Of a DNA stretch of 63,481 bases, positions 40,597 to 56,885 are shown in pieces (the first letter of the stretch is position 1; every line of letters begins with the position of its first letter). The DNA comes from Ruminococcus sp. (GTDB lineage: Bacteria > Bacillota_A > Clostridia > Oscillospirales > Ruminococcaceae): NCBI RefSeq assembly GCF_024684275.1, contig NZ_JAIKXF010000029.1, forward strand, positions 1 through 63,481, in the 5' to 3' direction. A program made the translations under genes and the position numbers. Under the pieces are notes generated by a model, which was not told where the DNA came from, ran no database searches, and was given only the letters and a program-made list of their open reading frames with translations.

Positions 40597-40625
40597 TTGA
40601 CAAATCTTGCATAAGATGATATAAT
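40597..40625 (+). promoter_or_regulatory. Promoter of FHA/kinase/surface operon
   Basis: TTGACA (40597-40602), 17-bp spacer, TATAAT (40620-40625): full consensus, 75 bp before the first gene. Confidence 0.85.
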
Positions 40626-40700: not shown

Positions 40701-42044
40701 ATGGCAAGTGTTTCAATCAAGGTAGTTTATCAGAACGAGACCTTTATGCAGGCAGCGGTAAAAAAGAAGGTCCAGATCAGTGAGGATCAGCTCAAGTTTA
40801 TCAACAGAAACAGAAATAAGGGCTTTCTCACAGTGAGCTGGGAAAAGACAGGTTCAAAGAACCTTCTTAAATATAAGGTAAGCAATATGACGTCACTGGC
40901 GGAGTACGTCAAGCAGAATCTTACTCAGGAGAAGTATTTCGAGCTTATACGCCAGATACAGAGGGTGATGGAGGTCGCCAACGATAATAATCTTGATTAC
41001 GATCATCTTGTGCTGACAGATCCGAAACACGTATATTATGACGTGCAGAAGAAAAAGATAGGCGTTGCATTTCTTCCGATGCTGAGCAGGGATTACAAGT
41101 GCGCCAACGTGGTGAAGTTCCTTGCAAAGCTCCACAAATACGCAAATATCACGGTTACAGATCAGGGAGTCATGCAGAAGTATGTTTTCTTCCTCAATGA
41201 CTATCTCAAGACAAAGAAGAGCAGCGTTCTTACACATAATCATCTGTACAATCTGCTCCATGAGGTGCTTGAAGTCACACTTGGCACTCCCTCGCAGATA
41301 GCTGCCGAGGAGGGCAAGCCCACTCCTGCCGACAGCAGCAAGACTGCGGCTGTGGGTGCCGAAGCTGACGCTGACCATACAATAGTTGTAAGCAGCGGCA
41401 AAAAAGCAGAGTGCCCTGCTTACCTTAAAGATGAGAATAACAGGGAATTTGCCATTGACCATTTCCCTTTCACTATAGGCAGAAAAGCCGACAACGACCT
41501 TGCTCTTACGGATAAGGGCACGGTGTCAAAGCTCCATGCGGTCATAACCTTTGAAAACGGCACATTCTACATCGAGGATAAGGATTCCTCAAACGGTACC
41601 TTCCTCAATAATTTTGCCGAGAACAGTCAGCGTGTCATCAAGGAGAAGCTGAACAGCGGCGATGTTATCTACATCTATAATATCCCCTATGTGTTCACTG
41701 TGAATTCAATTGACAGCGCCACTGTCGTCGTAGGGGAAAGCGCAAACCGCAAGAAGTCCGACAGCAAGAACAGCAAGTCAAAGAATATCGCATATCTCGT
41801 CAATTCCTCCAGCAACGAAAAGGTGCCGATCTTCGTTTATCCCTTTACCTGCTCGGAGATCTCGGGTATAGTTATCGGACGTGAAAACAGCCGCGACAGA
41901 CACAGTATCTACATCGAGAATATCTCATGCAGTTCACTTTCCGTTGAGGGAAGCGATATTGCCGAGGGCAGCAGAGAAAGCATATTCTCGGGCTGTAATT
42001 TCCTGTATCACGGCATACCATTTACATTCTTTGAAGAAAATTAA
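40701..42044 (+). CDS. DUF6382-like/FHA-domain protein
   Basis: 447 residues. Residues 1-180 resemble the pseudo-kinase-like N-terminal domain (DUF6382 type) often joined to FHA. Residues about 245-335 are a canonical FHA domain, which binds phosphothreonine: FTIGRKADNDLAL, VSKLHAVI, DSSNGTFLNN. A degenerate second FHA-like segment (VIGRENSRDRHSIYIENISC) ends the protein. It is cytoplasmic. Two T-x-V-V stretches (DADHTIVVS, SATVVVGES) flank the FHA domain and are candidate phospho-sites. First gene of the operon with a phosphatase and kinase, so it is the likely phosphothreonine reader. Confidence 0.86.
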   Translation: MASVSIKVVYQNETFMQAAVKKKVQISEDQLKFINRNRNKGFLTVSWEKTGSKNLLKYKVSNMTSLAEYVKQNLTQEKYFELIRQIQRVMEVANDNNLDYDHLVLTDPKHVYYDVQKKKIGVAFLPMLSRDYKCANVVKFLAKLHKYANITVTDQGVMQKYVFFLNDYLKTKKSSVLTHNHLYNLLHEVLEVTLGTPSQIAAEEGKPTPADSSKTAAVGAEADADHTIVVSSGKKAECPAYLKDENNREFAIDHFPFTIGRKADNDLALTDKGTVSKLHAVITFENGTFYIEDKDSSNGTFLNNFAENSQRVIKEKLNSGDVIYIYNIPYVFTVNSIDSATVVVGESANRKKSDSKNSKSKNIAYLVNSSSNEKVPIFVYPFTCSEISGIVIGRENSRDRHSIYIENISCSSLSVEGSDIAEGSRESIFSGCNFLYHGIPFTFFEEN

Positions 42045-42056
42045 CGGTGATCTTTT

Positions 42057-42836
42057 ATGAAATACGTTTTTTCCTATGTTACTACCGAGGGGGCGGTGAG
42101 AAAGATAAATCAGGACTCTCTGTTTATTGTCACCGCTAAGTATAAGGATGACGAGATATTCTTCGGAGCTGTATGTGACGGAGTGGGTGGACTCTCGGGC
42201 GGAGAAAAGGCAAGCGGCTATGTCTGCAAGCGCATAAATGAGTGGTTTACCAATGACTTTTCAGAGCTCATGAGCAGCGGCGCTTCCATACTGAAGATAC
42301 GCAAGTCTCTTGATGACCGCCTTCACCAGCTCAGCGACAATATCAACGCCTATGCTGAGAAGAAAAACTCGGATATGGCTACTACCTTTACCTCACTGCT
42401 GGTCATTCCTCAGATGAGACATATCCTCATTGCTCATGTGGGAGACTCACGTCTGTACAGGATAGACTACGAGGAGATAAAGCTCATGACCTCTGACCAT
42501 TCAATAGTTGCACAGGAGGTCAGAAACGGTGTTATCACCGAGGAAATGGCTGAGAACGATCCAAGACAGAACCAGCTTACAAACTGTATCGGAGCAGGTC
42601 TTGAGGATACCTCATATGACTACAGCATAGCAAATATTGATGAAGGCAGCTGTTATATGCTCTGCTCGGACGGCTTCCGCAAGAAGCTCTCTGCCGATGA
42701 GATACAGGAGTACCTCTCACCCTCAAACAACAAGGACGAGAAGAAGATAACCTATAATCTGGAATGTCTTAAAAATAAGGTCATGAAGCGCGGAGAAAAG
42801 GACAATATAACTGCCCTTATGGTCAAGCTCTGCTGA
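42057..42836 (+). CDS. PP2C-type Ser/Thr protein phosphatase
   Basis: 259 residues. PP2C motifs for the two-metal site are complete: NQDS near the N-terminus, CDGVGGLSGGE, MATTFTSLLV, HVGDSRLYRID, SDHSIVAQEV, CSDGFRKKLS and DNITALMVKL. It should reverse phosphorylation made by the kinase encoded 16 bp downstream. Soluble. Confidence 0.94.
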   Translation: MKYVFSYVTTEGAVRKINQDSLFIVTAKYKDDEIFFGAVCDGVGGLSGGEKASGYVCKRINEWFTNDFSELMSSGASILKIRKSLDDRLHQLSDNINAYAEKKNSDMATTFTSLLVIPQMRHILIAHVGDSRLYRIDYEEIKLMTSDHSIVAQEVRNGVITEEMAENDPRQNQLTNCIGAGLEDTSYDYSIANIDEGSCYMLCSDGFRKKLSADEIQEYLSPSNNKDEKKITYNLECLKNKVMKRGEKDNITALMVKLC

Positions 42837-42852
42837 AAGCGAGGAGATTTGT

Positions 42853-44556
42853 TTGCTTAACGAAGGCTTTGTGCTTGAAAACAGGTACAAGATCGTTAAT
42901 ATTGCAGGAAAAGGCGGTACCTCAGTGGTTTATCGCGCACTTGACCTCAAAGCCAATAACGCCCAGCGAGCTGTGAAGGAGGTCAAAAAGACCAACGGCA
43001 CAGACGCATACAATGCAAGGCAGGAGTCGCTGCTTATCAAGGAATTCTGCGAAAAGGACGTGAAGAATTCCTATTTTCCCAATATTATCGAGATAATCGA
43101 CAATAAGCCCGACGCCCTCTATATCGTTCAGGATTATATAGACGGTGTCTCTATGGAAAAGCTTCTCGCTTACTATCCCTTCCGACACAATATGGTGCTG
43201 AAATACGCAAAGGATATATGTTCTGTTATTTCCTTTATCCATAAGTGCGGACTGATACACAGCGATATGAAGCCTGATAATATAATGGTCGTAAGGACAG
43301 AGGAGGACATGGAAAACTCCAAGCGTCCCGACAAATTCGGCAAGCTGAAATTCATTGACTTCGGCTCTGTTATTGAGAGGCGAGAGGGTACATTTGCGTA
43401 TACCCCTGCTTACGCCGCTCCTGAGCAGTTCCGCAAGGAGGAGCTTGACGAAAAGACGGATATCTTCAATATCGGAGCTACAATGTTCCACATGATAACA
43501 GGCAGAAAGCCCATGAACGTTTCCGTTAAGGGCAAGCTTGTAAGCTCTGCTGAGCGCTTTGTGTTCGACAAGGGCACAAACGCAGGACTTGTGAGGATAA
43601 TCCGCAAATGCGTACACGACGACAAGAACAAGCGATACCGCTCATGTGACGAGCTCTATGCAGACCTTGACAGGGCGGAGAATCATACATATATCAGAGT
43701 TACGGGCATACTTGCAGGTCTCGCCGCTCTTTCACTGGGAATATCCCTTTTCGCGGGCATAATGGCTCACAAAAAGGACAGCGAGGACTTCAATACACTC
43801 CTTGAGATAGCCGAGAGCTCCAATGAATACGAGGAGAGAGCTGCGGCTTTCGAGGACGTTATCCACGCCGACGGCTCATATGCGGACGCCTATATTGAGC
43901 TCATCGAGCTCTACAAGAGCGACCAGGTTTTTGCGGCTGACGAGGTGGAGCAGATACGCAGGCTCATCAACGAGAATGTAAATGTCCTGCAAAAGGCTCC
44001 GGGGTATGAGAATGTTGCCTTTGAACTTGGTATACTCTACTGGTATTATTATTTCTACGGCAGCAATGCCGAGGACCTTATGAACCAGAATACGGGAACA
44101 TCAGGCAAGATAGCTGCCGTTAAGTGGTTCAAGGAGGCTCAGACAGAGAACTTCAAGGATAAATATCCAAAGAAGTATCAGATAGCACGGGTTTACTGCG
44201 CTATCGGTGATTTCTACTCACAGAGCCGCAAAAAGGAAAATGAGCTCCTCGGGAATGATATTTCCGCAGACCTCTGGAGCAGCATGAACGAGCTCAGCGA
44301 GCTTGTCGAGACGGAAAATGCAGATTCGGATATAATCGTGCTCGAGACCTACAAGACTCTTGCAAATCTCGAATACACCAATATTAACGAGTTTTTCAAG
44401 GCAGGCGTAAGCTATGCCGAGCAGAAGAAATTCATCAGGAATATCAAGGAAAAGACCGAAAAGATGAATCCCCAGAGCGGTACTGCCGCAGAAGCAAAGG
44501 ATTATATCCTCGGCTCATATGATATGATAATACAGAGCATAGAGGGCTCTGAGTAA
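42853..44556 (+). CDS. Transmembrane Ser/Thr protein kinase with TPR-like sensor
   Basis: 567 residues from a TTG start with GAGGAG upstream. The Hanks-type kinase domain (about 1-275) has GKGGTSVVYRAL (Gly loop), AVKEVK (catalytic Lys), HSDMKPDNIMV (catalytic loop, with HSD in place of HRD), KFIDFGSV (DFG) and APEQ. One membrane helix (ILAGLAALSLGISLFAGIM, about 284-303) is followed by an extracytoplasmic alpha-helical region of about 260 residues with TPR-like helices. Unlike PrkC, no PASTA domains are present. It probably senses a surface state and phosphorylates partners of the FHA protein. Confidence 0.9.
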   Translation: MLNEGFVLENRYKIVNIAGKGGTSVVYRALDLKANNAQRAVKEVKKTNGTDAYNARQESLLIKEFCEKDVKNSYFPNIIEIIDNKPDALYIVQDYIDGVSMEKLLAYYPFRHNMVLKYAKDICSVISFIHKCGLIHSDMKPDNIMVVRTEEDMENSKRPDKFGKLKFIDFGSVIERREGTFAYTPAYAAPEQFRKEELDEKTDIFNIGATMFHMITGRKPMNVSVKGKLVSSAERFVFDKGTNAGLVRIIRKCVHDDKNKRYRSCDELYADLDRAENHTYIRVTGILAGLAALSLGISLFAGIMAHKKDSEDFNTLLEIAESSNEYEERAAAFEDVIHADGSYADAYIELIELYKSDQVFAADEVEQIRRLINENVNVLQKAPGYENVAFELGILYWYYYFYGSNAEDLMNQNTGTSGKIAAVKWFKEAQTENFKDKYPKKYQIARVYCAIGDFYSQSRKKENELLGNDISADLWSSMNELSELVETENADSDIIVLETYKTLANLEYTNINEFFKAGVSYAEQKKFIRNIKEKTEKMNPQSGTAAEAKDYILGSYDMIIQSIEGSE

Positions 44557-44571
44557 GGAGGAAGGTGCGGA

Positions 44572-44967
44572 ATGGATTCATATGACTGGCAGATATTGTC
44601 ACATATATTTCTCGGGATAGGCATAGTTCTTTTTATCGCCGCACTTATCCTGACCATAAGGTACAGAGTCATATCAAATCTGATCTCTGACATAAAGGTG
44701 AGAAAAATGTCGCCTGAGCCTTTAAAGGCTGCCTCGACCATAAACCTCAGTCTCAGAAGCACCGATCCTGAGCTGTCCGCTCCGCCCGAAAGTGACGAGG
44801 ACGGTCCGTGGACAGTGGTAGTTGCTCCCGTACAAGATGAGGAGAATATCGACAGCACTGTGGTAGTCGGCAATAACAAAAACTCAGAGAGCGACTTTAT
44901 CATTACAAGCAATATCGTAGTAATAAATGCAGATGTAGATGTAATAGACAACGGGAGAAGAAAATGA
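44572..44967 (+). CDS. Small membrane protein with repeated T-V-V-V motifs
   Basis: 131 residues. One N-terminal membrane helix (HIFLGIGIVLFIAALILTI) is followed by a polar, acidic tail facing the cytoplasm by the positive-inside rule. The tail carries GPWTVVVAP, IDSTVVVGNN and SNIVVINADVDV: repeats of a Thr-Val-Val-Val pattern set in acidic sequence, like known FHA-ligand sites. Family not recognised. Its position after the kinase and before the surface genes suggests it is a phospho-acceptor adaptor. Confidence 0.72.
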   Translation: MDSYDWQILSHIFLGIGIVLFIAALILTIRYRVISNLISDIKVRKMSPEPLKAASTINLSLRSTDPELSAPPESDEDGPWTVVVAPVQDEENIDSTVVVGNNKNSESDFIITSNIVVINADVDVIDNGRRK

Positions 44968-45902
44968 GAAAATGCGTCGTTTTCGGCGGTATATCCGCTG
45001 CACTCGCTTTTGCTCCTGTAGGAGCTGTTTATGCGGCGGGGGACTATGAAGCACCGTCGGGAATAGTGCTTTCCATAGGTGATACAGAGATAGACAGGGC
45101 TGACCTCACAGGCGGAAGGCTTATAGAGGTGCCTGTCAGTATTGGCAATAACAGCGGCTTTGTTTCCGTTGAGATGCTCATACAGCTTGACAGCAGGCTC
45201 AGCTATGCCGAGGATTATGAGGCAGTCACAAGAGCCGAGGAGATGTCGGGCGTTCATATCACGGATAAGGAGGATATGGAGAATACGCGCAAGGTGGGCT
45301 TTGTTACCAAGACAAAGTCGCGCTTTACAGGTGACGGAGAGATAGGCTGTGTGAGAGTGATGCTTGCCGAGGATACTCCTGTGGGAAGATACGATATTTC
45401 ACTCTATCCATATACCGACGGACCTATGATACTGACATACAACAACTTTGACGCATATTTCGGCGCTGAATGCTTCTCTGAGCTGAGAGGCGGCACAATA
45501 ACCGTAAAGGACGGGGATACAGTGCCTCAGCAGGAGCAGGCTCCGCCGCGGCATGATGATGAAGCGGACAGAAATGCACCGCAGGAGAAAGAAAGCTCAT
45601 CTGATGAAAACGAAAGTAAAATTGAAACCACTACAGCTTTGACAGTGACCACAACCGCTGTTACTACAGCAAGGACAACGGTCACATCATCATCGGCTTC
45701 TACAGCTTCCGCAAAGGTAACCTCAGGAGTGACAGCTTCGACAGAGACCACTGCTGTTTCGGCTGTGACCGCTGAGCCTTCAGCTGAGACCGATACATCA
45801 AAACACAAGAATAATCATCTGCTGATCCCTGCTATCGCCGCAGCAGTCATCGCACTGGGAGCAGCCTGTTTTATAGTCAGAAAAGGAGGAAGGTCAAAGT
45901 GA
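44964..45902 (+). CDS. Membrane-anchored cohesin-like surface protein
   Basis: 312 residues, overlapping the previous gene by 4 bp. A signal peptide (ISAALAFAPVGAVYA) is followed by a beta-sandwich domain of about 145 residues with the cohesin pattern: IVLSIGDTEID..LIEVPVSIGNNSGFVSVEMLIQLDS..GEIGCVRVMLAEDTPVGRYDISL..GGTITVKD. Then come a Thr/Ser-rich linker of about 90 residues and a C-terminal hydrophobic helix with a basic tail (LLIPAIAAAVIALGAACFIV, RKGGRSK), which anchors it in the membrane rather than through sortase. If it is a true cohesin it would bind dockerin proteins at the membrane. The cohesin call is by pattern only. Confidence 0.65.
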   Translation: MRKCVVFGGISAALAFAPVGAVYAAGDYEAPSGIVLSIGDTEIDRADLTGGRLIEVPVSIGNNSGFVSVEMLIQLDSRLSYAEDYEAVTRAEEMSGVHITDKEDMENTRKVGFVTKTKSRFTGDGEIGCVRVMLAEDTPVGRYDISLYPYTDGPMILTYNNFDAYFGAECFSELRGGTITVKDGDTVPQQEQAPPRHDDEADRNAPQEKESSSDENESKIETTTALTVTTTAVTTARTTVTSSSASTASAKVTSGVTASTETTAVSAVTAEPSAETDTSKHKNNHLLIPAIAAAVIALGAACFIVRKGGRSK

Positions 45903-48900
45903 ATAACAGCAGATTTGATCTTAAAAGAAAGCTTGCTTTTGTGGCGGCACTTGCTTTTGCTGCAAATTCAGCAGGCAGTTTGTCTGCGTCAGGCGCTGAA
46001 GCAGCCATGACTGCGGCAGGCACCAAGCCTGCAAATGTAGGCATACCGGGCGATAATGCTCCGACTCCGCCTGATCACGGCGACAATGGATATGAGACCG
46101 TAACATATAACATATTCATAAACGGCACAGACTTTGATGATGATAGGTTCAAAAGTCTTCTCATGCAGGTATTCGGCACATTGGGCACAAATCCAAGCTT
46201 TAATCCTGAATCGGGCATGGGAAGCGTAACTATCAGCGGCTATCATCATATAAACAGGAACGATATATTCATTTCTGATGATACCAAGCTTGTGCTTGAC
46301 TCTGATGCTGATGATACCTTTGTTTTCAATACCTATTACAAGGTGAATGGTTATTATAACGATGACAAGATAACCATGACAGGCAGAGAAGGCGACACCC
46401 ATTATGAGCTCAGGGACGGCTTTGTCAGAAGCGGTACTGTACTTGAGATAGCTCCTACGGAATACTATAAGCTCGGTACGGGAGGACAGTCTATAGAAAT
46501 AGACGCAGAGGCTCCTATTGATATAAGGACAGAAAATTATTACAATGACGGCTATGAGCTTGTCATAGACGAGACTCATTATACCGTATCGCCAAAGACC
46601 TTTGACCTCAGCATTGACAGAAATGTCTTTGAAGTCAGGTTTGACGGCGAGCCTACATCTCTCAGCAGGTTCAAATGGAAGGACATAAACAGGCTATCTG
46701 TCTATTGCCCGAATAAGCAGGCGCTCTTTGTGAACTGTGAATACGGCGGAGAGGTCATAGAGCTTTTTGATGAATGGTTCAACTGCTCAACACTGACGCT
46801 GAGCGATAAGTTCAGATACAGGCATGACTGCAGCATATCTATACAGGGCGTTGACCGCACTGTTTCTGCTGTAGCAGTATTCGGTGAGGGCGATGAACAG
46901 TATTCGAGGAGATACGAGATACCTGTTGTTCAGAAAGCGGACAGCCATGATTTTGAACTGAAAATACCCTACCTTGCAGGCGACGGCTGCTGCCTCAGCA
47001 GCTATACCTACGGAGGCGAGCCCGAGAAGTCGCTTACCGGTGTATATGACGACCTGACCAATGACATCAGAGAAAAGAAGCTGGACTACAAGTTTGACTG
47101 CGGAGAGATACAGCTTGTCTACAGGAAGCTTGCAGACAGCGAGAATATGTATATTTTCCAGCCCGAAGCAGACCTTTTCGAGAGGAATGACAGGTGCTAT
47201 ACCATAAGCTCTTCTGACGCTCTGGTAAAGCTTATGGACTTTACCTCGCTGTTTGACGGAAGTACGGTGCTTTATGACGTATACAGAAGAAATACGGATA
47301 CTGTTGAGCACAAAAAGTTCGTTATCGGCGGCTCGTCAAGGGAGTTTTCGGAAAATCTTGCGAACAGCCCTAAGTCTGCCCTGTATATCGTAAAGAATAT
47401 CATCAGCCAGACAGGCGACAACGTTTTAAGAGACGGTCTGGACGGGGTGATCTGCTTCTACAGCGACAAGACAGCTCCCAAAGTGGATTTTACAAGAGGA
47501 GAGAATTCCGACCGGTGGGCTGGCAGGGAAGGTATGTCCTTTGCCATGAGGATAACCGATAATGAAAAATGCCCCGTCGAGGAAAAGGATGACCTTACCT
47601 TTGAAGAGGGCGAGATATTAGACATCTACAATAATTACATAAATAAAGAGACCGAAAACAGCAGCGAGATATGCTCTGTTGTTGTGGGAGACTACAGATT
47701 CGACAGACCTGCAAGCGGCTGGGGAGATACAGCCAAGATAAAGGGCTATGTGGAAACTCCCGGCATGAGAGAGAAGTTTGATTCGGCTGTGTCTGTGCTT
47801 TCAAAGCTGAGACTTGCCGATTTCGACAGCAGATACAGTGACCAGCTCAACTGTGACAGCTATTACCGTCAGCTCCTCAGGGAGCACTCTGCGTCTCTTA
47901 TTGAAGATATCAGCAAATATTACAATGCTGAGATAAACGCTGAGGAGGAAAAGGAAGAGCCCGACACCAACAGGATAGATGAGCTGAAAAGGCTGCGTGA
48001 CAAGTATACAGGTGCCGTGGCTGAATATAAGTCTGCTCAGGAAGCTCCCATAAGGACTTCAAAGTGCGTCCCTGTGCTTACCTATGACAAGGAAAGCGGA
48101 GAATTTGTTGTTTCCGTAAAGGCAGAGGCTGCTCACGCAAGCGAGATGATAGACGAATGGCTCAGGGTATTTGCTCTTGACGACAGCAATAATTCAAGCT
48201 ATGACAGCTCTGACAGAAAGCACGTAAGAGTAAAGATAGACGGCGCTCCGCCGGCTGTTGCGGATAACAAGATAACTATCACAGACGATGAGGTGATAAC
48301 CGACGAAGACGGCAAGGAGGCTCACGTCCTGAAGGCAGGCAGCACTATAAGCGCGGTCCTCAGCGATGTACAGTCATCTGTTGACGGCTCGGGCATCAGC
48401 GATGTGAAGATATACTTGGGTGATGAGACCGGTGAAGGCGAAAATATGACGCTGAAAGACGGAAAATATATCTTCCGTATCGTTGAGAGCGCCATTAAAA
48501 ACGTCAATATCAAGACCTGTATAACTATCTACGCTATAGACAGTGTAGGCAACCCTGTTACCATAAAGAGCAGCGACAGCAAGTACGGCGGCTTTAATAT
48601 CATAATTGACGATACTGCTCCCACCTGCTCGGTAAAGAATGCTTCGGACAGCGAAAAACGCTATGTATTCGAGGGCGACGGCAGGGAATGGTACAAGGCT
48701 TATTCCGATGTGAGGATAGCTGTTGCCGCTGAAGACCCGAATACAGAAATATGCTCGGGTATCAAGGAACTGAAGTTCAGGATAAACGGCAGCGAGTGTA
48801 CAGTAAATGCCGATATGAACAGCGGTATCGACCGCGGAGCTCTCAGCAGCGGAAAGTACGGGATCGTACTGGAGCCTGTACAGGATCAGGACAGATTCAG

Positions 48901-51463
48901 GGCAAGGCTTGTGAACAGCACGGATAATTCCGTTGCTGCCGAGCTGGGCGAATTCAGCAGGGATAATGGTGCTGTAAGAGTCGAGCTCAGAGCTGAGGAC
49001 CTTGCGGGAAATGAAAGCTCCATAAGCGAGACTGAGGTCTGGATAGACCTTTCTGTGCCAAGTGTAAATGCCGCTGACGCAGAGGATACTTCTCTCAGAC
49101 GTGACCAGCGATACGGCTATGTATATTTTGCAAGGGAGCAGGCGGTTGTCCGCGTTTCCGTAAACGAAAACGGTCCCGGCGCAGGTATCGGCAGTATCAA
49201 GGCTGTTCTTGTAAACAGCGATGGTACACCGAGTGCCGTTGTGCCCGAGATACGCAGAACAGGCGATACCGATCAGTGGGAGGTAGTTGTTCCTCAGATG
49301 TTCAGGGGCTATATGCGTCTGAGCGCTCTCAGCCGCATGGGCAGAGAATCGGAGGTATTCGAAACTGCACTGTTCATGGTTGAAAAGGACGAGGATCACA
49401 GGGCTAATGCAAGTGTAACACTGGAGCTTCCGCCCACAAGCTTCAAGGACGGAAAGGGCTTGCCGCTCTATTCCGACGATATAGACGCAGATATCCGCGT
49501 TAGGGAGAATTTCTCGGGTATCAGGGATATACGCATATCCGCATCAGGCGAATTTGACAGGCGTCTCACCGTAAACGATATGGGAGAAATATCAGGCAGC
49601 GGCATCGAAAGCTGGGAGGCTGACGACAGCAGCAGAGACCTGAATACCGTCAGGGAGATCGCTACAAAAGTCAAGCTTACAGGAAACTCCAACGGCGACA
49701 GCGTTTATGTGACCTTCAATGATAAAGCAGGCAATCCTGCGGAGGATAAGGCTGTATCAAGGAGCTACAGCATAGACAAGACCGATCCTGTTATGAATGT
49801 TGCCTTTACCGACGCAAGCGGCTCGGCAGACAATGAGTTCAAGCAGATATACAAGAGCACAAGAAGAGCTGTCATTACCATAAATGAGAGAAACTTCGAC
49901 AAGGCGCTCGCTGATATAAGAGTAAACAACAGCAGAAGAGAGCTTGAATGGAGGCTGATAAACGGTACAGAGGGTACTGACAGCGCTGTATATCAGGCGA
50001 ATATACCATTCGATGACGATGGCACCTACAGACTTACCGCAAGCTTCAAGGATATGGCAGGCAGAGAGGCTAAGTCCTATGATTCGGGCGAATTCGTCAT
50101 CGACAGGACTGCTCCTGCTATGAATATAGGCTTTGATAAGAAGATAGCCAATGAGCACTTCTATAACGAGCCTACTATGGCTACATTCAGAATATCAGAC
50201 CAGAATTTCGAGCCCTCACGAGTTGTCATGACGGGTACTTACAACAACAGCGCTGAGGAATTCCCGAAGGCTTCAGAGTGGGTAAAGTCGGGAAACGATT
50301 ATGTATCCACTGTAAAGTTTGAAAAGGACGGCGAGTATACCGTAAATATCACGGGTAAGGACAAGGCTGGAAATACTCTTGAAGCCTATAATGCCAAGTT
50401 CTGTATCGACAGTCAGTCGCCGAAGATCTCTGTAAGCGATGTGAATGCGGCTAATAACAAAAAGGAAATAAGACCGCATATCCAGTTCAACGATGTGAAT
50501 CTTGACAAGGACAGCATAAAGATAAAGCTCGAAGGCGCTAACAGAGGACGCTCTCTTGATTTTGAGGGAGAGCTCCGCGAAAGTGCTGACGGCTATGAGT
50601 ATGTATTCAATAATATCCCCGATAAGGCGGACTTTGATGACATCTACACCATTAAGGCAAGTGCGAAGGACAATGCTTCAAATAAGGTGGAGAAGGACTT
50701 CCGCTTCTCGGTAAACAGATACGGCTCAACATTTATGCTGGACGAGGGAACAGGAAGCATCGTCGGAAAGTATATCTCAAAGGCTCAGGACATCGTTATC
50801 TCTGAGGTCAACGCTAATAAGCACTCAGAGCCATACAGCGTCTATATCACTAAGGACTCGGAAATGGCTGTTCTGAAGGACAATGTTGACTATAAGGTTG
50901 AGTACACAGGCGGTGATGATGAGTGGTCTGAGTACAAGTACATAATCTATGCAAAGAATTTTGAGAATGACGGAAGATATACCGTTTCCATTCACTCTGT
51001 TGATGAGGCAGGAAATATCAACGTCAGCACTTCTGAAAAGAAGAATTCCTATCTTGAATTCTGCGTGGATACTACGCAGCCTCTGTGCATACCGCTGAAT
51101 CTCTCTGAAAACAGTGCATACAGGGGTGAAAGACTTGATGCCAAGATGTCAGTATCAGACAATATCATGCTAAAGGGTGCAAAGGTGTTTGTTGACGATA
51201 AGGAGATAAGGTCGAGATATATCGACGATGAGTATCTTGAATTTACCGTCAGAAATGCTAAACACGCCCAGAATGTAAAGGTCGTTCTCACAGATATGGC
51301 AGGCAATGAGATAGAATATTCCTACAAGAATATTCTTGTTACCACAAACGCTGTGCGAATCCTTGCTCATAAGACATGGTTCAAGTTTGTTTGCGGCGGT
51401 ATCGTGCTTCTCGGAGGTGCAGCTGCGTTCCTTATCAGAAAGCGTAAACACAGACTTCTGTAA
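45899..51463 (+). CDS. Giant Ig-like repeat surface protein with C-terminal membrane anchor
   Basis: 1854 residues from GTG 45899, overlapping the previous stop by 4 bp; GGAGGAAGG upstream. A signal peptide (AFVAALAFAANSAGSLSASG) precedes an N-terminal region of about 450 residues with two Gly/Asn-rich beta domains. At least seven Ig-like domains follow, marked by D-x-A-G-N strands and linkers such as IDKTDPVMNVAF, IDRTAPAMNIGF and IDSQSPKISV. A membrane helix (FVCGGIVLLGGAAAFLI) and basic tail RKRKHRLL end the protein. No LPXTG or catalytic motif. It likely forms a long stalk at the cell surface. Last gene of the operon, followed by a terminator. Confidence 0.88.
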   Translation: MNNSRFDLKRKLAFVAALAFAANSAGSLSASGAEAAMTAAGTKPANVGIPGDNAPTPPDHGDNGYETVTYNIFINGTDFDDDRFKSLLMQVFGTLGTNPSFNPESGMGSVTISGYHHINRNDIFISDDTKLVLDSDADDTFVFNTYYKVNGYYNDDKITMTGREGDTHYELRDGFVRSGTVLEIAPTEYYKLGTGGQSIEIDAEAPIDIRTENYYNDGYELVIDETHYTVSPKTFDLSIDRNVFEVRFDGEPTSLSRFKWKDINRLSVYCPNKQALFVNCEYGGEVIELFDEWFNCSTLTLSDKFRYRHDCSISIQGVDRTVSAVAVFGEGDEQYSRRYEIPVVQKADSHDFELKIPYLAGDGCCLSSYTYGGEPEKSLTGVYDDLTNDIREKKLDYKFDCGEIQLVYRKLADSENMYIFQPEADLFERNDRCYTISSSDALVKLMDFTSLFDGSTVLYDVYRRNTDTVEHKKFVIGGSSREFSENLANSPKSALYIVKNIISQTGDNVLRDGLDGVICFYSDKTAPKVDFTRGENSDRWAGREGMSFAMRITDNEKCPVEEKDDLTFEEGEILDIYNNYINKETENSSEICSVVVGDYRFDRPASGWGDTAKIKGYVETPGMREKFDSAVSVLSKLRLADFDSRYSDQLNCDSYYRQLLREHSASLIEDISKYYNAEINAEEEKEEPDTNRIDELKRLRDKYTGAVAEYKSAQEAPIRTSKCVPVLTYDKESGEFVVSVKAEAAHASEMIDEWLRVFALDDSNNSSYDSSDRKHVRVKIDGAPPAVADNKITITDDEVITDEDGKEAHVLKAGSTISAVLSDVQSSVDGSGISDVKIYLGDETGEGENMTLKDGKYIFRIVESAIKNVNIKTCITIYAIDSVGNPVTIKSSDSKYGGFNIIIDDTAPTCSVKNASDSEKRYVFEGDGREWYKAYSDVRIAVAAEDPNTEICSGIKELKFRINGSECTVNADMNSGIDRGALSSGKYGIVLEPVQDQDRFRARLVNSTDNSVAAELGEFSRDNGAVRVELRAEDLAGNESSISETEVWIDLSVPSVNAADAEDTSLRRDQRYGYVYFAREQAVVRVSVNENGPGAGIGSIKAVLVNSDGTPSAVVPEIRRTGDTDQWEVVVPQMFRGYMRLSALSRMGRESEVFETALFMVEKDEDHRANASVTLELPPTSFKDGKGLPLYSDDIDADIRVRENFSGIRDIRISASGEFDRRLTVNDMGEISGSGIESWEADDSSRDLNTVREIATKVKLTGNSNGDSVYVTFNDKAGNPAEDKAVSRSYSIDKTDPVMNVAFTDASGSADNEFKQIYKSTRRAVITINERNFDKALADIRVNNSRRELEWRLINGTEGTDSAVYQANIPFDDDGTYRLTASFKDMAGREAKSYDSGEFVIDRTAPAMNIGFDKKIANEHFYNEPTMATFRISDQNFEPSRVVMTGTYNNSAEEFPKASEWVKSGNDYVSTVKFEKDGEYTVNITGKDKAGNTLEAYNAKFCIDSQSPKISVSDVNAANNKKEIRPHIQFNDVNLDKDSIKIKLEGANRGRSLDFEGELRESADGYEYVFNNIPDKADFDDIYTIKASAKDNASNKVEKDFRFSVNRYGSTFMLDEGTGSIVGKYISKAQDIVISEVNANKHSEPYSVYITKDSEMAVLKDNVDYKVEYTGGDDEWSEYKYIIYAKNFENDGRYTVSIHSVDEAGNINVSTSEKKNSYLEFCVDTTQPLCIPLNLSENSAYRGERLDAKMSVSDNIMLKGAKVFVDDKEIRSRYIDDEYLEFTVRNAKHAQNVKVVLTDMAGNEIEYSYKNILVTTNAVRILAHKTWFKFVCGGIVLLGGAAAFLIRKRKHRLL

Positions 51464-51475
51464 ATAATAAAAACA

Positions 51476-51507
51476 GCCGCAGGGATAATCCCTGCGGCAC
51501 TTTTTTA
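51476..51507. terminator. Bidirectional terminator of surface operon
   Basis: GCCGCAGGGA-TAA-TCCCTGCGGC perfect 10-bp stem (51476-51498) followed by ACTTTTTTA; an A-run lies on the left for the opposite strand. Confidence 0.85.
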
Positions 51508-51543: not shown

Positions 51544-54147
51544 TTAAGCATCAAATTTGTCTAAGAAATCATCTATTGGTATAGGCTTTGAATAATAATA
51601 ACCCTGTAAGCAGTCTACCTGATAATTGAGCAGTATATTCCTCATTTCTGCGGTCTCTATACCCTCTACACATACGGTGGTACTGAAGCTGCGCATCATA
51701 TTGGAAAGAGCCGATACCAGCTGACGCTCCTTTGGACTTTCCTCTATATTCATAACGAGACTGCGGTCAAGCTTTATTATGTCGAATGGCAGGCTCTTTA
51801 CCAAGCCGACAGATGAGAAGCCTGTTCCGAAGTCGTCAAGAGCCATTTTTATGCCTCTGCCGCGGAGATTTACTATGACGTTTTTAAGCAGGTCCATGTC
51901 GAGAAGCCTGCACCGCTCGGTTATCTCAAGGCAGAGAGCCTCGGGCGGATAATTGGTATCGGCAAGAGCTGAAAGCACCATGTCAACGAAGTTGGGCTTT
52001 TCAAGCTGATTGTAGGAAAGGTTGACGTTTATGATGAAGCTGGGGTATTTTTCCCTCAGCCTCTTTGCGCCTATGAGAGCAGTTCTGAGTATCCACTGTC
52101 CCAGCTCGAAGAAGATAGGATCCTTTTCAAGGACGGGTATGAAGCTGTCAGGCGGTACCATGCCGTATTCCTCGTTTTTCCACCTGAGAAGAGCTTCGGC
52201 GCCTGTGACCTTTTCGGTGAGCGCGTCAACTACAGGCTGATACAGCAGGAAGAAGCCATGAAAATCCTGCATGATCGAGGAGCGGATAACGTGGAGAACT
52301 TCTGTGCGGTGCTTCTTGTCCTCGTTTGCTCTGCTGCCGAATTCCACCATGTCGCCCTGCCTGCGGAGCTTTGACTCACCGTAGGCATAATTCAGACAGG
52401 CATAGACGGTCTGAGGATCGATATTGAAGTTATCAACGTTGAGAAGTCCTGCATTGGTGTCAAGTATGATAAGCTCGTCGTCAATGAAAAAATCGTTGCG
52501 GAAATAGTGCCGCATTTCATTGTACTTGAACTTTATCTCATCTAAGCTGCGCAGAGATGTAAGGATAGCGAATTTTGTGCCGTCAAGGCGGTATACTGTG
52601 CCGTAGTTGCCTACGTTCTCATAGAGATATCTGCCGTATTTCTGCAATACAAGGTTGCCGAAATGATAGCCGTATACGTCGTTTATCTCTGAGAATTTTG
52701 CAAGACCAACCATTACTACCTTGAAGGGCTCGTTTTTCAGTATCTTTGCTTCGATATCCTCAAAGAAGCCGTACTGGTTCTGGAGTCCTGTAAGGGTGTC
52801 GATGTGTCCCTGTATGCTGTGGTTGCGGATAGTTCCGCAGAAATATTCTGGTATACCCTTGGGACTGTAAAGAACTGTGCCGCGGCAGGTGCATACGTCG
52901 TATTCGCCGTTTATCTTGCGGGCTCTGTACTGCATATCGTGGGAATTTGTTTTGCCCGAAAAGATAGCCTCGATACCCTCGCGGTATGTATCGACGTCCT
53001 CGGGGTGGATATGGCTGTCCCATATCTTTGCCGCATTGACCATGTATTCGCTTGGCAGACCAAAGAGGTCAACTGCCTTCTTTGACCAGCGTGAATAATC
53101 ATAGCGCATATCGCAGAGATATACAAAGGTGCCCTCTGCGAATATTGAAATAGCATTGAACAGCCTTTCGAGCTTTTCCTTGCGGTCAAGGGGAATAGAT
53201 ATGTCACCGTTAATGTATTCGATTGAAGACTTGCCTGCTTCACCGCTCTTTATTGCTTTTTTGTCCTTGTACATCAGATTCTCGGCACGTTCAAAAACAG
53301 ATGTGAAGCTATTGTCCTCATCGCTGTTGAAAACCGCCATGCCTGCTGCGAGAACAGGACCGTCCTTGCATTTGATATTGTCAACCACCTGCTCATGCAG
53401 ATCCTCAAAGAGGGCGTTTCTGTTCTCGTAGTCTATTCCTCTGAGTAAAACAGCGAATTTGTCGCCATCGATCCTGAAAACAGGGCTGTGGGTGAAGATA
53501 TTGCAGATGAGCTTGCAGGAGGCGATGATATGACCGTCGCCTGCCGCAGACGAAAAGCTCTCGTTAAGCTGTGTTATACCGCCGACGTCGCAGATTATAA
53601 GGGCAAAGGGAAGATACACAAGACCGTTGTTGATGTTTTCCTGTATGGCCTTGGCAAGCTCGTCAAAGGCTGTCTTGTTCTTGATGCCTGTCAGCTCGTC
53701 GCGCCTTGTGACCTCGTTTGCAAGACTGAGCACGTTGGTAAGTGCAGTTTCGCGGCGTATTTCCTCAACGGTATCCTCTACGCCGACTATAAGGTGCAGT
53801 CTGTCTCGTGCCCATGACACGGTTGCTCGTGCAAAACGCGGTTCACCGTCAATGAGCAGGGTATAATCAAATGAGTAGAGCTTTTTTATTTCAAGGGCAG
53901 AAATAATGCTTTCCTTTTTCAGCTTGAATTTTACTCTTTCAATGTCCTTTGGAGCGATTATCTTTTCGGCGTTTCTCTGGGCATCGCTGAAAAAGTTCTT
54001 TCCGTCCTCTTTTATGTGGTCGTCACCGTATATTTTTGCGCTGGTGAAGCGAGTGTAACTGCCGTTCTCAGCGTTGATATAGTAGATGATATCGTAGCTT
54101 CGAGCCAGACTTTCGGCTATGTTGTCAAAGATTCCCTGTTTATCCAT
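51544..54147 (-). CDS. GGDEF-PAS-GGDEF-EAL protein with degenerate GGDEF motifs
   Basis: 867 residues, soluble. Order: N-terminal PAS-like region (1-120), first GGDEF fold (about 145-300; motif FRIDGDKFAV), PAS (about 325-440, DMRYDYSRWSKKAVDLFG), second GGDEF fold (about 445-605; YRLDGTKFAI), EAL domain (about 615-860). Neither GGDEF motif keeps the G-G-[DE]-E-F residues, so synthesis of cyclic di-GMP is unlikely. The EAL domain keeps EALLRW, FIINVNLS, CLEITERC, ALDDFGTGFSS, IIKLDRSLV, VCVEGIET and QGYY, so it should be an active phosphodiesterase, probably controlled by the other domains. Confidence 0.9.
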   Translation of the reverse strand: MDKQGIFDNIAESLARSYDIIYYINAENGSYTRFTSAKIYGDDHIKEDGKNFFSDAQRNAEKIIAPKDIERVKFKLKKESIISALEIKKLYSFDYTLLIDGEPRFARATVSWARDRLHLIVGVEDTVEEIRRETALTNVLSLANEVTRRDELTGIKNKTAFDELAKAIQENINNGLVYLPFALIICDVGGITQLNESFSSAAGDGHIIASCKLICNIFTHSPVFRIDGDKFAVLLRGIDYENRNALFEDLHEQVVDNIKCKDGPVLAAGMAVFNSDEDNSFTSVFERAENLMYKDKKAIKSGEAGKSSIEYINGDISIPLDRKEKLERLFNAISIFAEGTFVYLCDMRYDYSRWSKKAVDLFGLPSEYMVNAAKIWDSHIHPEDVDTYREGIEAIFSGKTNSHDMQYRARKINGEYDVCTCRGTVLYSPKGIPEYFCGTIRNHSIQGHIDTLTGLQNQYGFFEDIEAKILKNEPFKVVMVGLAKFSEINDVYGYHFGNLVLQKYGRYLYENVGNYGTVYRLDGTKFAILTSLRSLDEIKFKYNEMRHYFRNDFFIDDELIILDTNAGLLNVDNFNIDPQTVYACLNYAYGESKLRRQGDMVEFGSRANEDKKHRTEVLHVIRSSIMQDFHGFFLLYQPVVDALTEKVTGAEALLRWKNEEYGMVPPDSFIPVLEKDPIFFELGQWILRTALIGAKRLREKYPSFIINVNLSYNQLEKPNFVDMVLSALADTNYPPEALCLEITERCRLLDMDLLKNVIVNLRGRGIKMALDDFGTGFSSVGLVKSLPFDIIKLDRSLVMNIEESPKERQLVSALSNMMRSFSTTVCVEGIETAEMRNILLNYQVDCLQGYYYSKPIPIDDFLDKFDA

Positions 54148-54338: not shown

Positions 54339-56885
54339 TCACTCAGTTGCCTGGAATATGCCTCTTACAAAGCAGTAGAGGTGAGAGTGGATAGAGTCGT
54401 CGCCGTGGTGACCGTTCTGGACAACGTGCCATACGTGAGGTACGCTGTTTTTGTTAAAGTTGTTATGGTAGCCCTCGGGAGTATTAAGTCCTACAACGTC
54501 GTCCTGAGTACCGCCTGTTATCATTACGAGATAAGGTGTCTCAGAGGCGCTGTTCCACTTCCATGAGCCTGATGCGCCCGGTGCCGGGCAGATAGCTCCC
54601 ACATAGCCGAACTTGCTGCCGTATTTCATGCCTATCTGGAGAGATTCGCGTCCGCCCATTGAGAATCCTGTTACAGCAGTATTCTCTCTGCCTGTGGCTA
54701 CGCTGTACTTGCTTTCGATATGTGGCATAAGGCTGTCAACGATGTCGTCAACGAAGTTGTCATAGCCCTGATTTGAGCCCTGGTCTGCAAAGCCTGTGGC
54801 GTCATTCATGGTTGCACTGGTGAATACGAATGGAACTACTACTATCATATCCTTAGCTGCACCCTCGGCGATAGCATTGCCGATTATCTGCTGTGTGTAC
54901 ATCTGTCCGTTGCCCTGTGTTATCATGCGGTTCTCGTTCTCGAAGAAGCCGTGGAGCAGATAGAGGACAGGGTACTTCTTGCTCTCGTCATAGTTTGCAG
55001 GGAGCAGGATATTGTAGGGCTTGTTCTTGTTAGCCTTTTTGGAGAAGTAGGTCTCTTTCTTGATAGTTCCGTACTGAACGCCCTGCTTCTTGTTGTGCGA
55101 ATCGCTTGGTTCGTTGTTTACAAGTGCGTTCTGAACTATCTTTGTGAGCTCCTCCATTGTGTACTTCTGCTGACCTGTGGGGGCAGAAGTTTTTGTTGTG
55201 GTAGTTGCGATTGAAGTTGGATTAGAACGTGTTGTGGTTGTCTGATTAGTCGGATTGGTTGAAGCTGTTCCGCCGTCAGTTGCCTGGAATACGCCTCTTA
55301 CGAAGCTGTAGAGGTGAGAGTGGATAGAGTCGTCGCCGTGGTGACCGCCCTGAACAACGTGCCATACGTGAGGTACGCTGTTCTTGTTGAAGTTATTGTG
55401 GTAGCCCTCGGGAGTATTAAGTCCTACAACGTCGTCCTGAGTACCGCCTGTTATCATCAGGAGATATGGCTGTTCGTCGGGTGAGTTCCACTTGAATGCG
55501 CCCGAACCGCCCGGTGCAGGGCAGATAGCGCCTACATAGCCGAACTTGTCGCCGTGCTTCATGCCTATCATGAGGGATTCCATACCGCCCATTGAGAAGC
55601 CTGTTACGGCTGTGTTCTCTCTGCCTGTTGCAACGCTGTACTTCTCCTCGATATGAGGCATGAGGCTGTCAACGATGTCATCGACAAAGTTATTGTAGCC
55701 CTGTACAGAGCCTGCGTCACCGAAGCCTGTAGCGTCGTTCATTGTGGGACTTGTGAATATGAACGGGCATACTACAATCATGTCCTTGGCTGCGCCCTCA
55801 GCGATAGCATTGCCCACTATCTGACGGGTGTACATTGTGCCGTTGCCCTTGGTTATCATACGGTCCTCGTTCTCGAAGAAGCCGTGGAGAACGTAGAGAA
55901 CCGGATATTTCTTGCTCTCGTCATAGTCGGCAGGAAGCAGGATATTGTATGGCTTCTGCTTGTTTGCCTTCTTGGAGAAGTAGTTCTCCTTCTTGATAGT
56001 ACCGTACTTGACGCCCTGCTTCTCCTGATGTGAGCTTGAAGGCTCATTGTTTACAAGCTCGCCCTGTATCTTTTCGGTGAGCTCCTCGGTGGTGTATTTC
56101 TGCTGTCCGGGTACAACAACAGGCTCAACAACAGGAAATTCGGTTATCTTGCCGCATACGAACCTCATAATGAGGACTGCATCTGCAAGCTCGTAAACGC
56201 CGTTGCTGTCGGCGTCGGCAGCCTTGAGAGCTTTTTTATCGGTGATTCCGTTGATGAGTCCCTTGCGGGCAAGGATAACATCAAAGGAGTCGATGCGTCC
56301 GTCGTAGTTGATGTCGCCCTTGTTCATCTTTACGGGAGCAGAGGGCTCGTCAAATGTGGTGCCGCTTGGAGCTGCTGCGACCTCGTCAACATAGAAGCTG
56401 CATTTGCTTTCCTCGGTCTCGATGTAAAGCTGTATGTCGGTAGCACCTGATGGAATTGTGAAGCTGCTTGCTTCAAGGTGAGCCCATTCTCCTTTTTTGG
56501 CGGTGACTTCGGTGATTTTTGGATAGCTGGCAGTTCCCCCGTCATTGCACTGTAACGTCAGATAGAATGTCACTGAATCCTCTGCTTCGGTCATGACATA
56601 GGCGCTGAATGCATAGTCCTGACCTGCCTTGAAGTCGGAGCCGAGAGCGACTGTAGCACCGTTCCATGAGCTTTCGCGTCCGCTGGTGAAGAGAGAGTAT
56701 TCACCTGAGCGTGAAACGCCAGAGACGGTCTTTACTGATGCAGAGCCTCTGCCGCTCCATTTGTCGGTGCCTTCTTCAAAGGTGCTGTGGAGCATGTAGT
56801 CGGATTCTGCGGCTGAGAGGGGCAGGGCACTCGCAGATGAGAGGGCGAGCATGGCTGCCATAAGTGTGGGTATGGATTTTTTCAT
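54339..56885 (-). CDS. Cellulosomal tandem CE1 esterase with CBM and dockerin
   Basis: 848 residues. Signal peptide (1-25), a CBM22/CBM4_9-like jelly roll (about 28-175), a dockerin (about 188-250: GDINYDGRIDSFDVILARKG and AADADSNGVYELADAVLIMRF), CE1 domain A (about 285-537), a Thr/Ser/Pro linker, CE1 domain B (about 575-848). Both esterase domains have LHGFFEN, the nucleophile GFSMGG (Ser431 and Ser742), TGGTQDDVVGL and the HHGDDSIHSH His region. The offset between domains is 311 residues and they are nearly identical, a recent duplication. Expected role: feruloyl or acetyl ester removal from xylan within the cellulosome. No close -10 is seen upstream, though TTGACA occurs at about 56948. 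Confidence 0.93.
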   Translation of the reverse strand: MKKSIPTLMAAMLALSSASALPLSAAESDYMLHSTFEEGTDKWSGRGSASVKTVSGVSRSGEYSLFTSGRESSWNGATVALGSDFKAGQDYAFSAYVMTEAEDSVTFYLTLQCNDGGTASYPKITEVTAKKGEWAHLEASSFTIPSGATDIQLYIETEESKCSFYVDEVAAAPSGTTFDEPSAPVKMNKGDINYDGRIDSFDVILARKGLINGITDKKALKAADADSNGVYELADAVLIMRFVCGKITEFPVVEPVVVPGQQKYTTEELTEKIQGELVNNEPSSSHQEKQGVKYGTIKKENYFSKKANKQKPYNILLPADYDESKKYPVLYVLHGFFENEDRMITKGNGTMYTRQIVGNAIAEGAAKDMIVVCPFIFTSPTMNDATGFGDAGSVQGYNNFVDDIVDSLMPHIEEKYSVATGRENTAVTGFSMGGMESLMIGMKHGDKFGYVGAICPAPGGSGAFKWNSPDEQPYLLMITGGTQDDVVGLNTPEGYHNNFNKNSVPHVWHVVQGGHHGDDSIHSHLYSFVRGVFQATDGGTASTNPTNQTTTTRSNPTSIATTTTKTSAPTGQQKYTMEELTKIVQNALVNNEPSDSHNKKQGVQYGTIKKETYFSKKANKNKPYNILLPANYDESKKYPVLYLLHGFFENENRMITQGNGQMYTQQIIGNAIAEGAAKDMIVVVPFVFTSATMNDATGFADQGSNQGYDNFVDDIVDSLMPHIESKYSVATGRENTAVTGFSMGGRESLQIGMKYGSKFGYVGAICPAPGASGSWKWNSASETPYLVMITGGTQDDVVGLNTPEGYHNNFNKNSVPHVWHVVQNGHHGDDSIHSHLYCFVRGIFQATE

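Follow-up and report, generated by a model that had tools for sequence, protein, structure and literature searches.

The six-gene operon at 40701-51463 of a Ruminococcus sp. contig (63,481 nucleotides of NZ_JAIKXF010000029.1, the whole of which is called the window here) is probably the signalling and envelope half of a type VII secretion system of the T7SSe/T7SSj kind, joined by a Ruminococcus cohesin-fold protein, that has gone on working after a single loss of the motor and would do so through a phospho-relay. Sequence comparison gives good support to the narrower statement that the operon is a T7SSe/T7SSj control and envelope cassette, that is, a known kind of locus in a new form, motor-less and with a cohesin added. 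As described for T7SSe in the text of Garrett, Higginson and Palmer 2024 (PMC11217815), TseJ combines DUF6382 with an FHA domain, TseF is a PPM phosphatase, TseD is a membrane kinase, TseK has one helix and a short cytoplasmic stretch, and TseI is large, its T7SSd counterpart having a Sec signal, Ig-like domains and a C-terminal helix. Further parts are TseH, TseC (an EssC-type ATPase with FHA), TseB and TseA, and T7SSj resembles T7SSe minus TseH. Set against these descriptions, five of the six operon genes correspond in domain make-up, and at one locus, to TseJ, TseF, TseD, TseK and TseI. An earlier note on this DNA had called the composition unlike any described system; that claim is not supported, since these five genes match T7SSe/T7SSj components in that paper and since EssC follows the giant gene in sister Ruminococcus loci. 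The words "cohesin" and "ruminococc" are absent from the main text of PMC11217815. Elsewhere in the literature, cohesin, dockerin and type VII secretion co-occur in reviews on other subjects, as list items, and R. flavefaciens and type VII secretion co-occur in review text by listing.

The six open reading frames were verified, all on the plus strand, with the coordinates and the tight spacing or overlaps that the earlier note had given. The first encodes a TseJ-like protein of 447 aa (40701-42044) with the Pfam domains DUF6382 (residues 29-140) and FHA (residues about 235-337) and a further beta domain (residues 361-446). It is followed by a TseF-like PP2C/PPM phosphatase of 259 aa (42057-42836, by Pfam) and by a TseD-like transmembrane Ser/Thr kinase of 567 aa (42853-44556, by Pfam) with a kinase domain and a helix at residues 286-304. 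A TseK-like protein of 131 aa (44572-44967) has one helix (residues 11-29) and a tail, presumably cytoplasmic, with two TVVV motifs. The predicted cohesin-fold surface protein of 312 aa (44964-45902) comprises a signal-peptide-like N-terminus, the cohesin (residues about 31-190), a Thr-rich linker and a C-terminal helix (residues 287-305). The last gene (45899-51463) encodes the TseI-like giant Ig-like surface protein of 1854 aa, with Pfam Big_13/Big_3 domains, as the earlier Ig-like assignment had it, and a C-terminal helix at residues 1828-1846. Neither the 131-aa nor the 312-aa protein matches a Pfam family over its cut-off. The kinase lacks PASTA, as had been claimed: the Pfam search finds no PASTA match. 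Its outer region looks helix-rich, and a TPR domain considered there was rejected, with nothing above threshold in nine kinases scanned and sub-threshold traces in three of them (window, L167 and L051). The proposal that the output of the kinase/PP2C/FHA module lies at the cell surface is supported.

Successive genes are spaced by 12, 16, 15, -4 and -4 bp, and the six probably share a single transcript. The consensus promoter reported earlier was found by sequence scan at 40597-40625 (plus strand) as a perfect sigma-70-type TTGACA-17-TATAAT site (12/12) with TG before the -10, and a terminator-like hairpin of 10 pairs with a T-run on both strands was found at 51476-51498 (plus strand). Perfect sites are frequent in the window (6 in 63 kb, none across 100 shuffles), so that the operon promoter by itself is unremarkable. 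A perfect TTGACA-17-TATAAT site also occurs in 18/18 orphan-lineage loci, 1.44-1.51 kb upstream of where the J gene ends; in L177 it fell outside the 250-bp scan because the annotated J start sits upstream. None of 23 other cassette loci has a perfect promoter within 250 bp before the annotated J start, where misannotated starts could hide one. After the operon, on the opposite strand, lies a gene for an 867-aa PAS-GGDEF-EAL protein (51544-54147), and an 869-aa ORF occupies the equivalent place in L001 and L002.

The same six genes occur in the same order in other Ruminococcus genomes. A search for this order bore out the expected conservation in other ruminococci, with J-F-D-K-cohesin-I in the window and 26 other loci (L001, L002, L059, L065, L148, L149, L152, L167-L179 and L181-L186), although in L152 the cohesin frame is broken or cut and the giant gene ends at the contig end. 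DUF6382 was detected in 32/247 genomes sampled from the family and in 48/125 of the genus. Within the same 125 genus genomes, the cohesin profile matched 49, of which 27 at E below 1e-30, many of the weak matches being to the Thr-rich linker alone, while EssC and WXG100 were over cut-off in 20 and 32, respectively. Annotation used HMMs iterated from window proteins and from ORFs of L047, L051 and L056; one chimeric row (P0037) was left out of alignment A2 and kept in A1, the alignment used for the profile search of genome contigs. The L051 YukD and WXG100 queries match PF08817 and PF06013, and the L176 EssC is over the TIGR03928 cut-off. The scanned YukD-like ORFs of L155, L176 and L181 match no Pfam family, so that the name "YukD" rests on the iterated HMM.

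EssC and a YukD-like ORF lie 0.1-2.2 kb past the giant gene in three loci without the cohesin (L155, L156, L157) and in five with it (L170, L175, L176, L181, L183), where cohesin and EssC fall inside one 20-kb stretch. In L155, L156, L157 and L175, whose fetched stretches extend far enough, WXG100-like genes come after these two. In the annotated part of the window (35001-58500) there is no EssC, YukD-like or WXG100 gene after the giant gene, and the same holds for the lineage relatives. Between giant and EssC, L155, L170, L175 and L176 have a conserved gene pair (about 310 and 325 aa) that is not among the T7SSe components given in the text of PMC11217815. Of the L176 pair, the first has no family match and the second has one to Rep3_N, a replication initiator domain of plasmid type.

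In a concatenated J+F+D tree of 33 loci, the 17 EssC-less loci form one clade (99/100, and in 98% of 200 bootstrap trees), made up of the window and loci of G001, G002, G257, G268, G304, G249, G364, G267, G261, G273, G334, G305, G289, G321, G256 and G258. Next to this clade stand the EssC-bearing L176 and L181, and the T7/orphan label changes once over the 31 labelled loci (L149 and L152 being unlabelled). A T7 label was given where EssC lies in the same stretch (L155, L156, L157, L170, L175, L176, L181, L183, L056), on the same contig (L059) or on another contig (L065, L066, L148, L186). L054 and L165 are one gene in two stretches; the kinase tree omits L165, the J+F+D tree omits the pair, and L161, with its broken kinase, is in neither. 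The kinase tree, built by a quick method, recovers the same set of 17 rows (SH-aLRT 98), with two label changes if L149 is labelled orphan. L149 (G272) falls among the EssC-bearing loci and its genome has no EssC over the cut-off, which could reflect a second loss or a gap in the G272 draft. From gene content and these trees, the loss of EssC/TseC and adjoining genes from the locus is well supported, and it probably happened a single time, in the ancestor of the R. flavefaciens lineage.

Whole-genome searches with the nearest EssC as query found an orthologue in 0/16 lineage genomes (the genomes of the tree clade other than those of the window and G258, plus G342). The absence is well founded in G257, since its 3.6 Mb stand in one contig. 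Ten of the 16 gave matches of 55-61 bits, the level of FtsK, against 1478-3612 bits in four genomes with EssC; the G002 match was verified to be FtsK, and FtsK is presumed elsewhere from score and size. A split T7-type ATPase (about 1089 + 580 aa, 145-153 bits), which is a different type of T7SS, was found in G268, G304, G364, G256 and G342, and G334 has a T7-type ATPase match of 92 bits in a 1729-aa frame. The split ATPase (G268:C12, G304:C40, G256:C3, G342:C89, G364:C3) has WXG100-like genes nearby and also occurs in other genomes of the genus. Nine of the 16 lineage genomes have no WXG100 match, and none was found at the operon locus; the other seven have a WXG100-level match elsewhere, that of G305 being 21 bits within a 1261-aa frame. 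Partners in trans may therefore exist, given the six genomes with another T7-type ATPase and the seven with a WXG100-level match. In G258 an orphan-type cassette with cohesin (L180, G258:C7) coexists with a full EssC (1478 bits), encoded at a different locus that has a TseJ and a PP2C of its own.

With the motor gone from the locus in the lineage, the operon could be read as what is left of a type VII system in decay, with no present function, and the missing cohesin in two species and a kinase frame split into two ORFs in L161 would fit decay. This reading is highly improbable and was rejected on the signal of selection and the conserved active sites, to which the perfect promoter in all 18 lineage loci can be added. 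By the Nei-Gojobori method (own script; saturated in distant pairs, where some genes have no ratio), the five nearest pairs give a dN/dS of 0.02-0.10 for J, F and D, and between the window and L002 it is 0.06 for J, 0.04 for F, 0.05 for D, 0.13 for K, 0.24 for the cohesin and 0.15 for the giant gene, values that point to purifying selection on J, F and D. Six whole genes are present in 15/18 lineage loci, the exceptions being L161, L162 and L177, where the contig end cuts the giant gene. Site residues of kinase, phosphatase and FHA are kept across the lineage, except for the broken kinase of L161. The kinase residues Lys42, Asp138, Asn143 and Asp169 (catalytic Lys, Asp, Asn and DFG Asp) are kept in 40/41 loci, L161 again being the exception, and the metal-site Asp residues of the PP2C are kept at every readable position of the aligned loci.

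A functioning cassette might instead control some other machine in trans, such as the type IV pili known from R. flavefaciens 007 or, in some relatives, the system with the split T7-type ATPase. A similar cassette, J-F-D-K-I without cohesin, stands beside Tad-type pilus genes in L039, L041, L047, L050, L037 and L154. ATPase, TadB/TadC and prepilin peptidase adjoin it in L039, L041 and L047, TadC and prepilin peptidase in L050 (where the giant gene appears in one of two annotations); in L037 and L154 the only such gene is that of a prepilin peptidase. Checked against known families, the queries taken from L047 fall to T2SSE, T2SSF (in one case under the cut-off) and Peptidase_A24; for the ATPase the TadA model comes closest, with a score under its cut-off. 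The genomes of these pilus-type cassettes (G101, G108, G076, G117, G141, G295) have no EssC over cut-off and no WXG100 match, which suggests that the cassette can serve unrelated envelope machines. In the kinase tree (midpoint root), the Tad-labelled loci fall outside a group (99) that holds the window and 14/16 T7-labelled loci. In L037, L050 and L154 a WG_beta-repeat protein of 437-448 aa is encoded directly before TseJ. According to the text of PMC3672088, strain 007C has more of a type IV pilin-like protein on cellulose. The split T7-type ATPase of five lineage genomes and the other T7-type ATPase of G334 also speak for such control. Against control in trans, a TadB query matched 3/28 genomes and 0/16 of the lineage, although it also missed the Tad-labelled G295 and its G101 match lay on another contig; a second T7-type ATPase is absent in 10/16; and no pilus gene was seen beside the operon in the partly annotated window. 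We regard control in trans as possible but doubtful, and keep to the reading of a cassette that outlived its motor.

The remaining gene, for the 312-aa protein, is an extra one found in Ruminococcus. Its product is predicted to adopt the cohesin jelly-roll fold: the structure prediction came out in favour of the earlier guess of a cohesin, with R. flavefaciens ScaE among the best matches, and identity to the ScaE cohesin 2zf9 in the structure matches is 13-18%. Searches by sequence found no cohesin family in Pfam at E 0.1 and, with a profile against the PDB, cohesins at E 0.054 and 0.12 only, below significance. PMC4081043 describes, in three R. flavefaciens strains, proteins with a single cohesin and no dockerin, the cohesin being joined to a part whose function is unknown; its text does not settle which putative cohesins are genuine, and the text of PMC5301203 gives ScaK, ScaL, ScaM, ScaN and ScaP as cohesins too divergent to test. 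The 312-aa protein may be among the cohesins of these two reports. Relatives of it occur outside the full cassette, alone or adjoining a giant protein, in L150 (G291), L151 (G367), L147 (G332) and L153 (G313). In L161 (G342) and L162 (G256) the cohesin gene is missing, and about 320-350 bp without obvious gene separate TseK from the giant gene. Cohesin and giant genes stand in one frame in L168, L169 and L172 (G268, G304, G364), with a single TAG between them that could permit a read-through fusion, the open frame being 2189-2255 aa.

The predicted fold raises the question of whether the operon is a cellulosome sensor, as the earlier note proposed, in which the cohesin would bind cellulosome dockerins and the kinase would report substrate contact or enzyme load. 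The likeness to ScaE, the many dockerins of these genomes, and the dockerin-less cohesins of PMC4081043, which may include the 312-aa protein, all speak for it, as do three dockerin-bearing proteins among the ten window proteins scanned: a serpin (16734-18710), an LRR_5 protein (19030-23001) and a CBM-esterase (54339-56885). On the other hand, the cohesin protein is also present in the EssC-bearing loci and is thus no private cellulosome add-on of R. flavefaciens, and two lineage species (G256 and G342) have the cassette without it. In 7/9 pairs no other gene of the six has a dN/dS as high as the cohesin gene (0.19-0.41 over nine pairs), where pairs without a TseK or giant ratio were counted on the remaining genes. 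Dockerin counts proved useless for testing the link: matches (48 to at least 128 per genome) were found in 37/37 genomes searched, equally in those without the operon cohesin, so that co-occurrence cannot decide it. On this balance a cellulosome sensor seems rather unlikely.

Candidate phospho-sites of the relay lie in TseJ and TseK. Thr227 of TseJ (41379-41381, plus strand), in the motif DHTIVV just N-terminal to the FHA domain, was picked out by conservation and motif enrichment; the position is Thr in 41/41 aligned loci and nearly invariant in alignment A4 (missing in P0194). Thr341 (41721-41723, plus strand), in SATVVV just C-terminal to the FHA domain, was picked out by conservation, being Thr in 19/19 ORP-list rows and 13/16 T7-labelled loci and a gap in 6 Tad-labelled loci. 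In the TseK tail, counted on the translation, the candidates are Thr81 (PWTVVVAP, 44812-44814, plus strand) and Thr96 (DSTVVVGN, 44857-44859, plus strand). T-V-V-V-type motifs number 70 in TseK tails against a shuffled mean of 5.2 and 90 in TseJ against 18.8, and are fewer than the shuffled mean in kinase, PP2C, cohesin and giant protein. Both J and K carry the motif in 31/47 loci, and its type is identical between them in 31/31; this agreement tracks the main clades and so reflects few independent events. The strict motif is absent from 9/47 TseK-type rows (L054 and L165 being one gene). The conserved G, R, S, H and N of the FHA domain, which we take to be its pThr-site residues, are kept in 19/19 ORP-list rows. 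In the kinase, the residue before the catalytic Asp is Ser in 18/18 readable ORP-list rows and 14/16 T7-labelled loci, and Arg in the six Tad-labelled ones.

From these features we infer a relay in which the outer region of TseD would sense the state of the giant and cohesin surface proteins and its kinase would phosphorylate Thr in the T-V-V-V-type motifs of TseK tail and TseJ. The FHA domain of TseJ might then bind the pThr of TseK at the membrane or, in competition, its own pThr, as in GarA/OdhI, and TseF would reverse the phosphorylation. In EssC-bearing relatives such a switch would gate the motor; in R. flavefaciens, whose locus has lost the motor, its target would have to be the surface proteins or some other partner. 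PMC11217815 raises phospho-control of T7SSe-type systems as a possibility in its text. DUF6382, from the look of its sequence, may be an EssB/YukC-like pseudokinase. A profile of 27 DUF6382 stretches did not match EssB in the PDB (its one match, E 0.16, was to another protein), and PF10140 was absent among the 25 of 32 Pfam families listed. The fold search, run with the whole TseJ model, was filled with FHA chains. YukC (PF10140) was found in 0/11 genomes searched, 10 of which have EssC over cut-off.

A bolder reading, which we hold to be improbable, is that in this whole lineage the half of a type VII system that controls its gate has become a surface receptor in its own right, in which a kinase/phosphatase/FHA relay with a T-V-V-V phospho-code reads the giant Ig-like stalk and a cohesin that docks a component of the cellulosome. 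If true, contact with plant fibre would be reported inside the cell without a secretion motor, and the relay would be a portable module, at work for type VII secretion and for Tad-type pili in other settings. By comparative genomics, the operon appears to be a secretion-control module retained by selection after its motor left the locus, with a related module beside pilus machinery, and the role of the kinase/FHA/giant part thereby becomes separable from secretion itself. Concrete threonines and a short motif make phospho-control of the T7SSe type testable, and the cohesin raises a testable link of phospho-signalling with the assembly of the cellulosome in a bacterium that is a main fibre degrader of the rumen.

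Among known systems, the PASTA kinase and Stp phosphatase pairs (PknB, Stk1) have kinase and PP2C domains of the same families, but the operon kinase has no PASTA repeats, and kinase and PP2C score below the equivalog cut-offs of PASTA kinase and Stp (118.6 of 450 and 163.9 of 230 bits). With EmbR, the FHA switches of the GarA/OdhI type are among the FHA structures closest to the predicted TseJ model in the fold search. In GarA/OdhI the phosphorylated Thr of an ETTS motif is bound by the protein's own FHA domain; in TseJ, too, a Thr motif adjoins the FHA domain, although there it is T[IV]VV. Like the R. flavefaciens scaffoldins ScaE and ScaG, the 312-aa protein combines a cohesin fold, here a predicted one, with a surface location. 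ScaE is anchored through LPXTG according to the text of PMC5301203, whereas the 312-aa protein has, by sequence, a C-terminal helix, and unlike ScaE and ScaG it shares an operon with a kinase, a phosphatase and an FHA protein. The threonine phosphorylation pathway PpkA-TssL-Fha of T6SS (PMC3953482) likewise equips a secretion machine with a kinase, an FHA protein and a membrane component that is phosphorylated, but that machine is unrelated, and at the operon locus the machine is absent. The closest likeness is to the systems of PMC11217815. As its text describes T7SSe, the DUF6382-FHA protein, PPM phosphatase, membrane Ser/Thr kinase, single-helix protein with cytoplasmic stretch and giant Ig-like protein with C-terminal helix are shared; T7SSe has TseH plus TseK where the operon shows one small membrane protein, and the window lineage locus lacks EssC (TseC) and has the added cohesin-fold protein. 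TsjD of T7SSj is said there to carry a TPR region, of which the kinases here show the sub-threshold traces given above, and the motor is again absent. With one small membrane protein per locus, the Ruminococcus loci are not separable between T7SSe (H and K) and T7SSj (K only), and the D, F, I, J and K set without TseH that the text gives for T7SSj matches what is seen in the operon.
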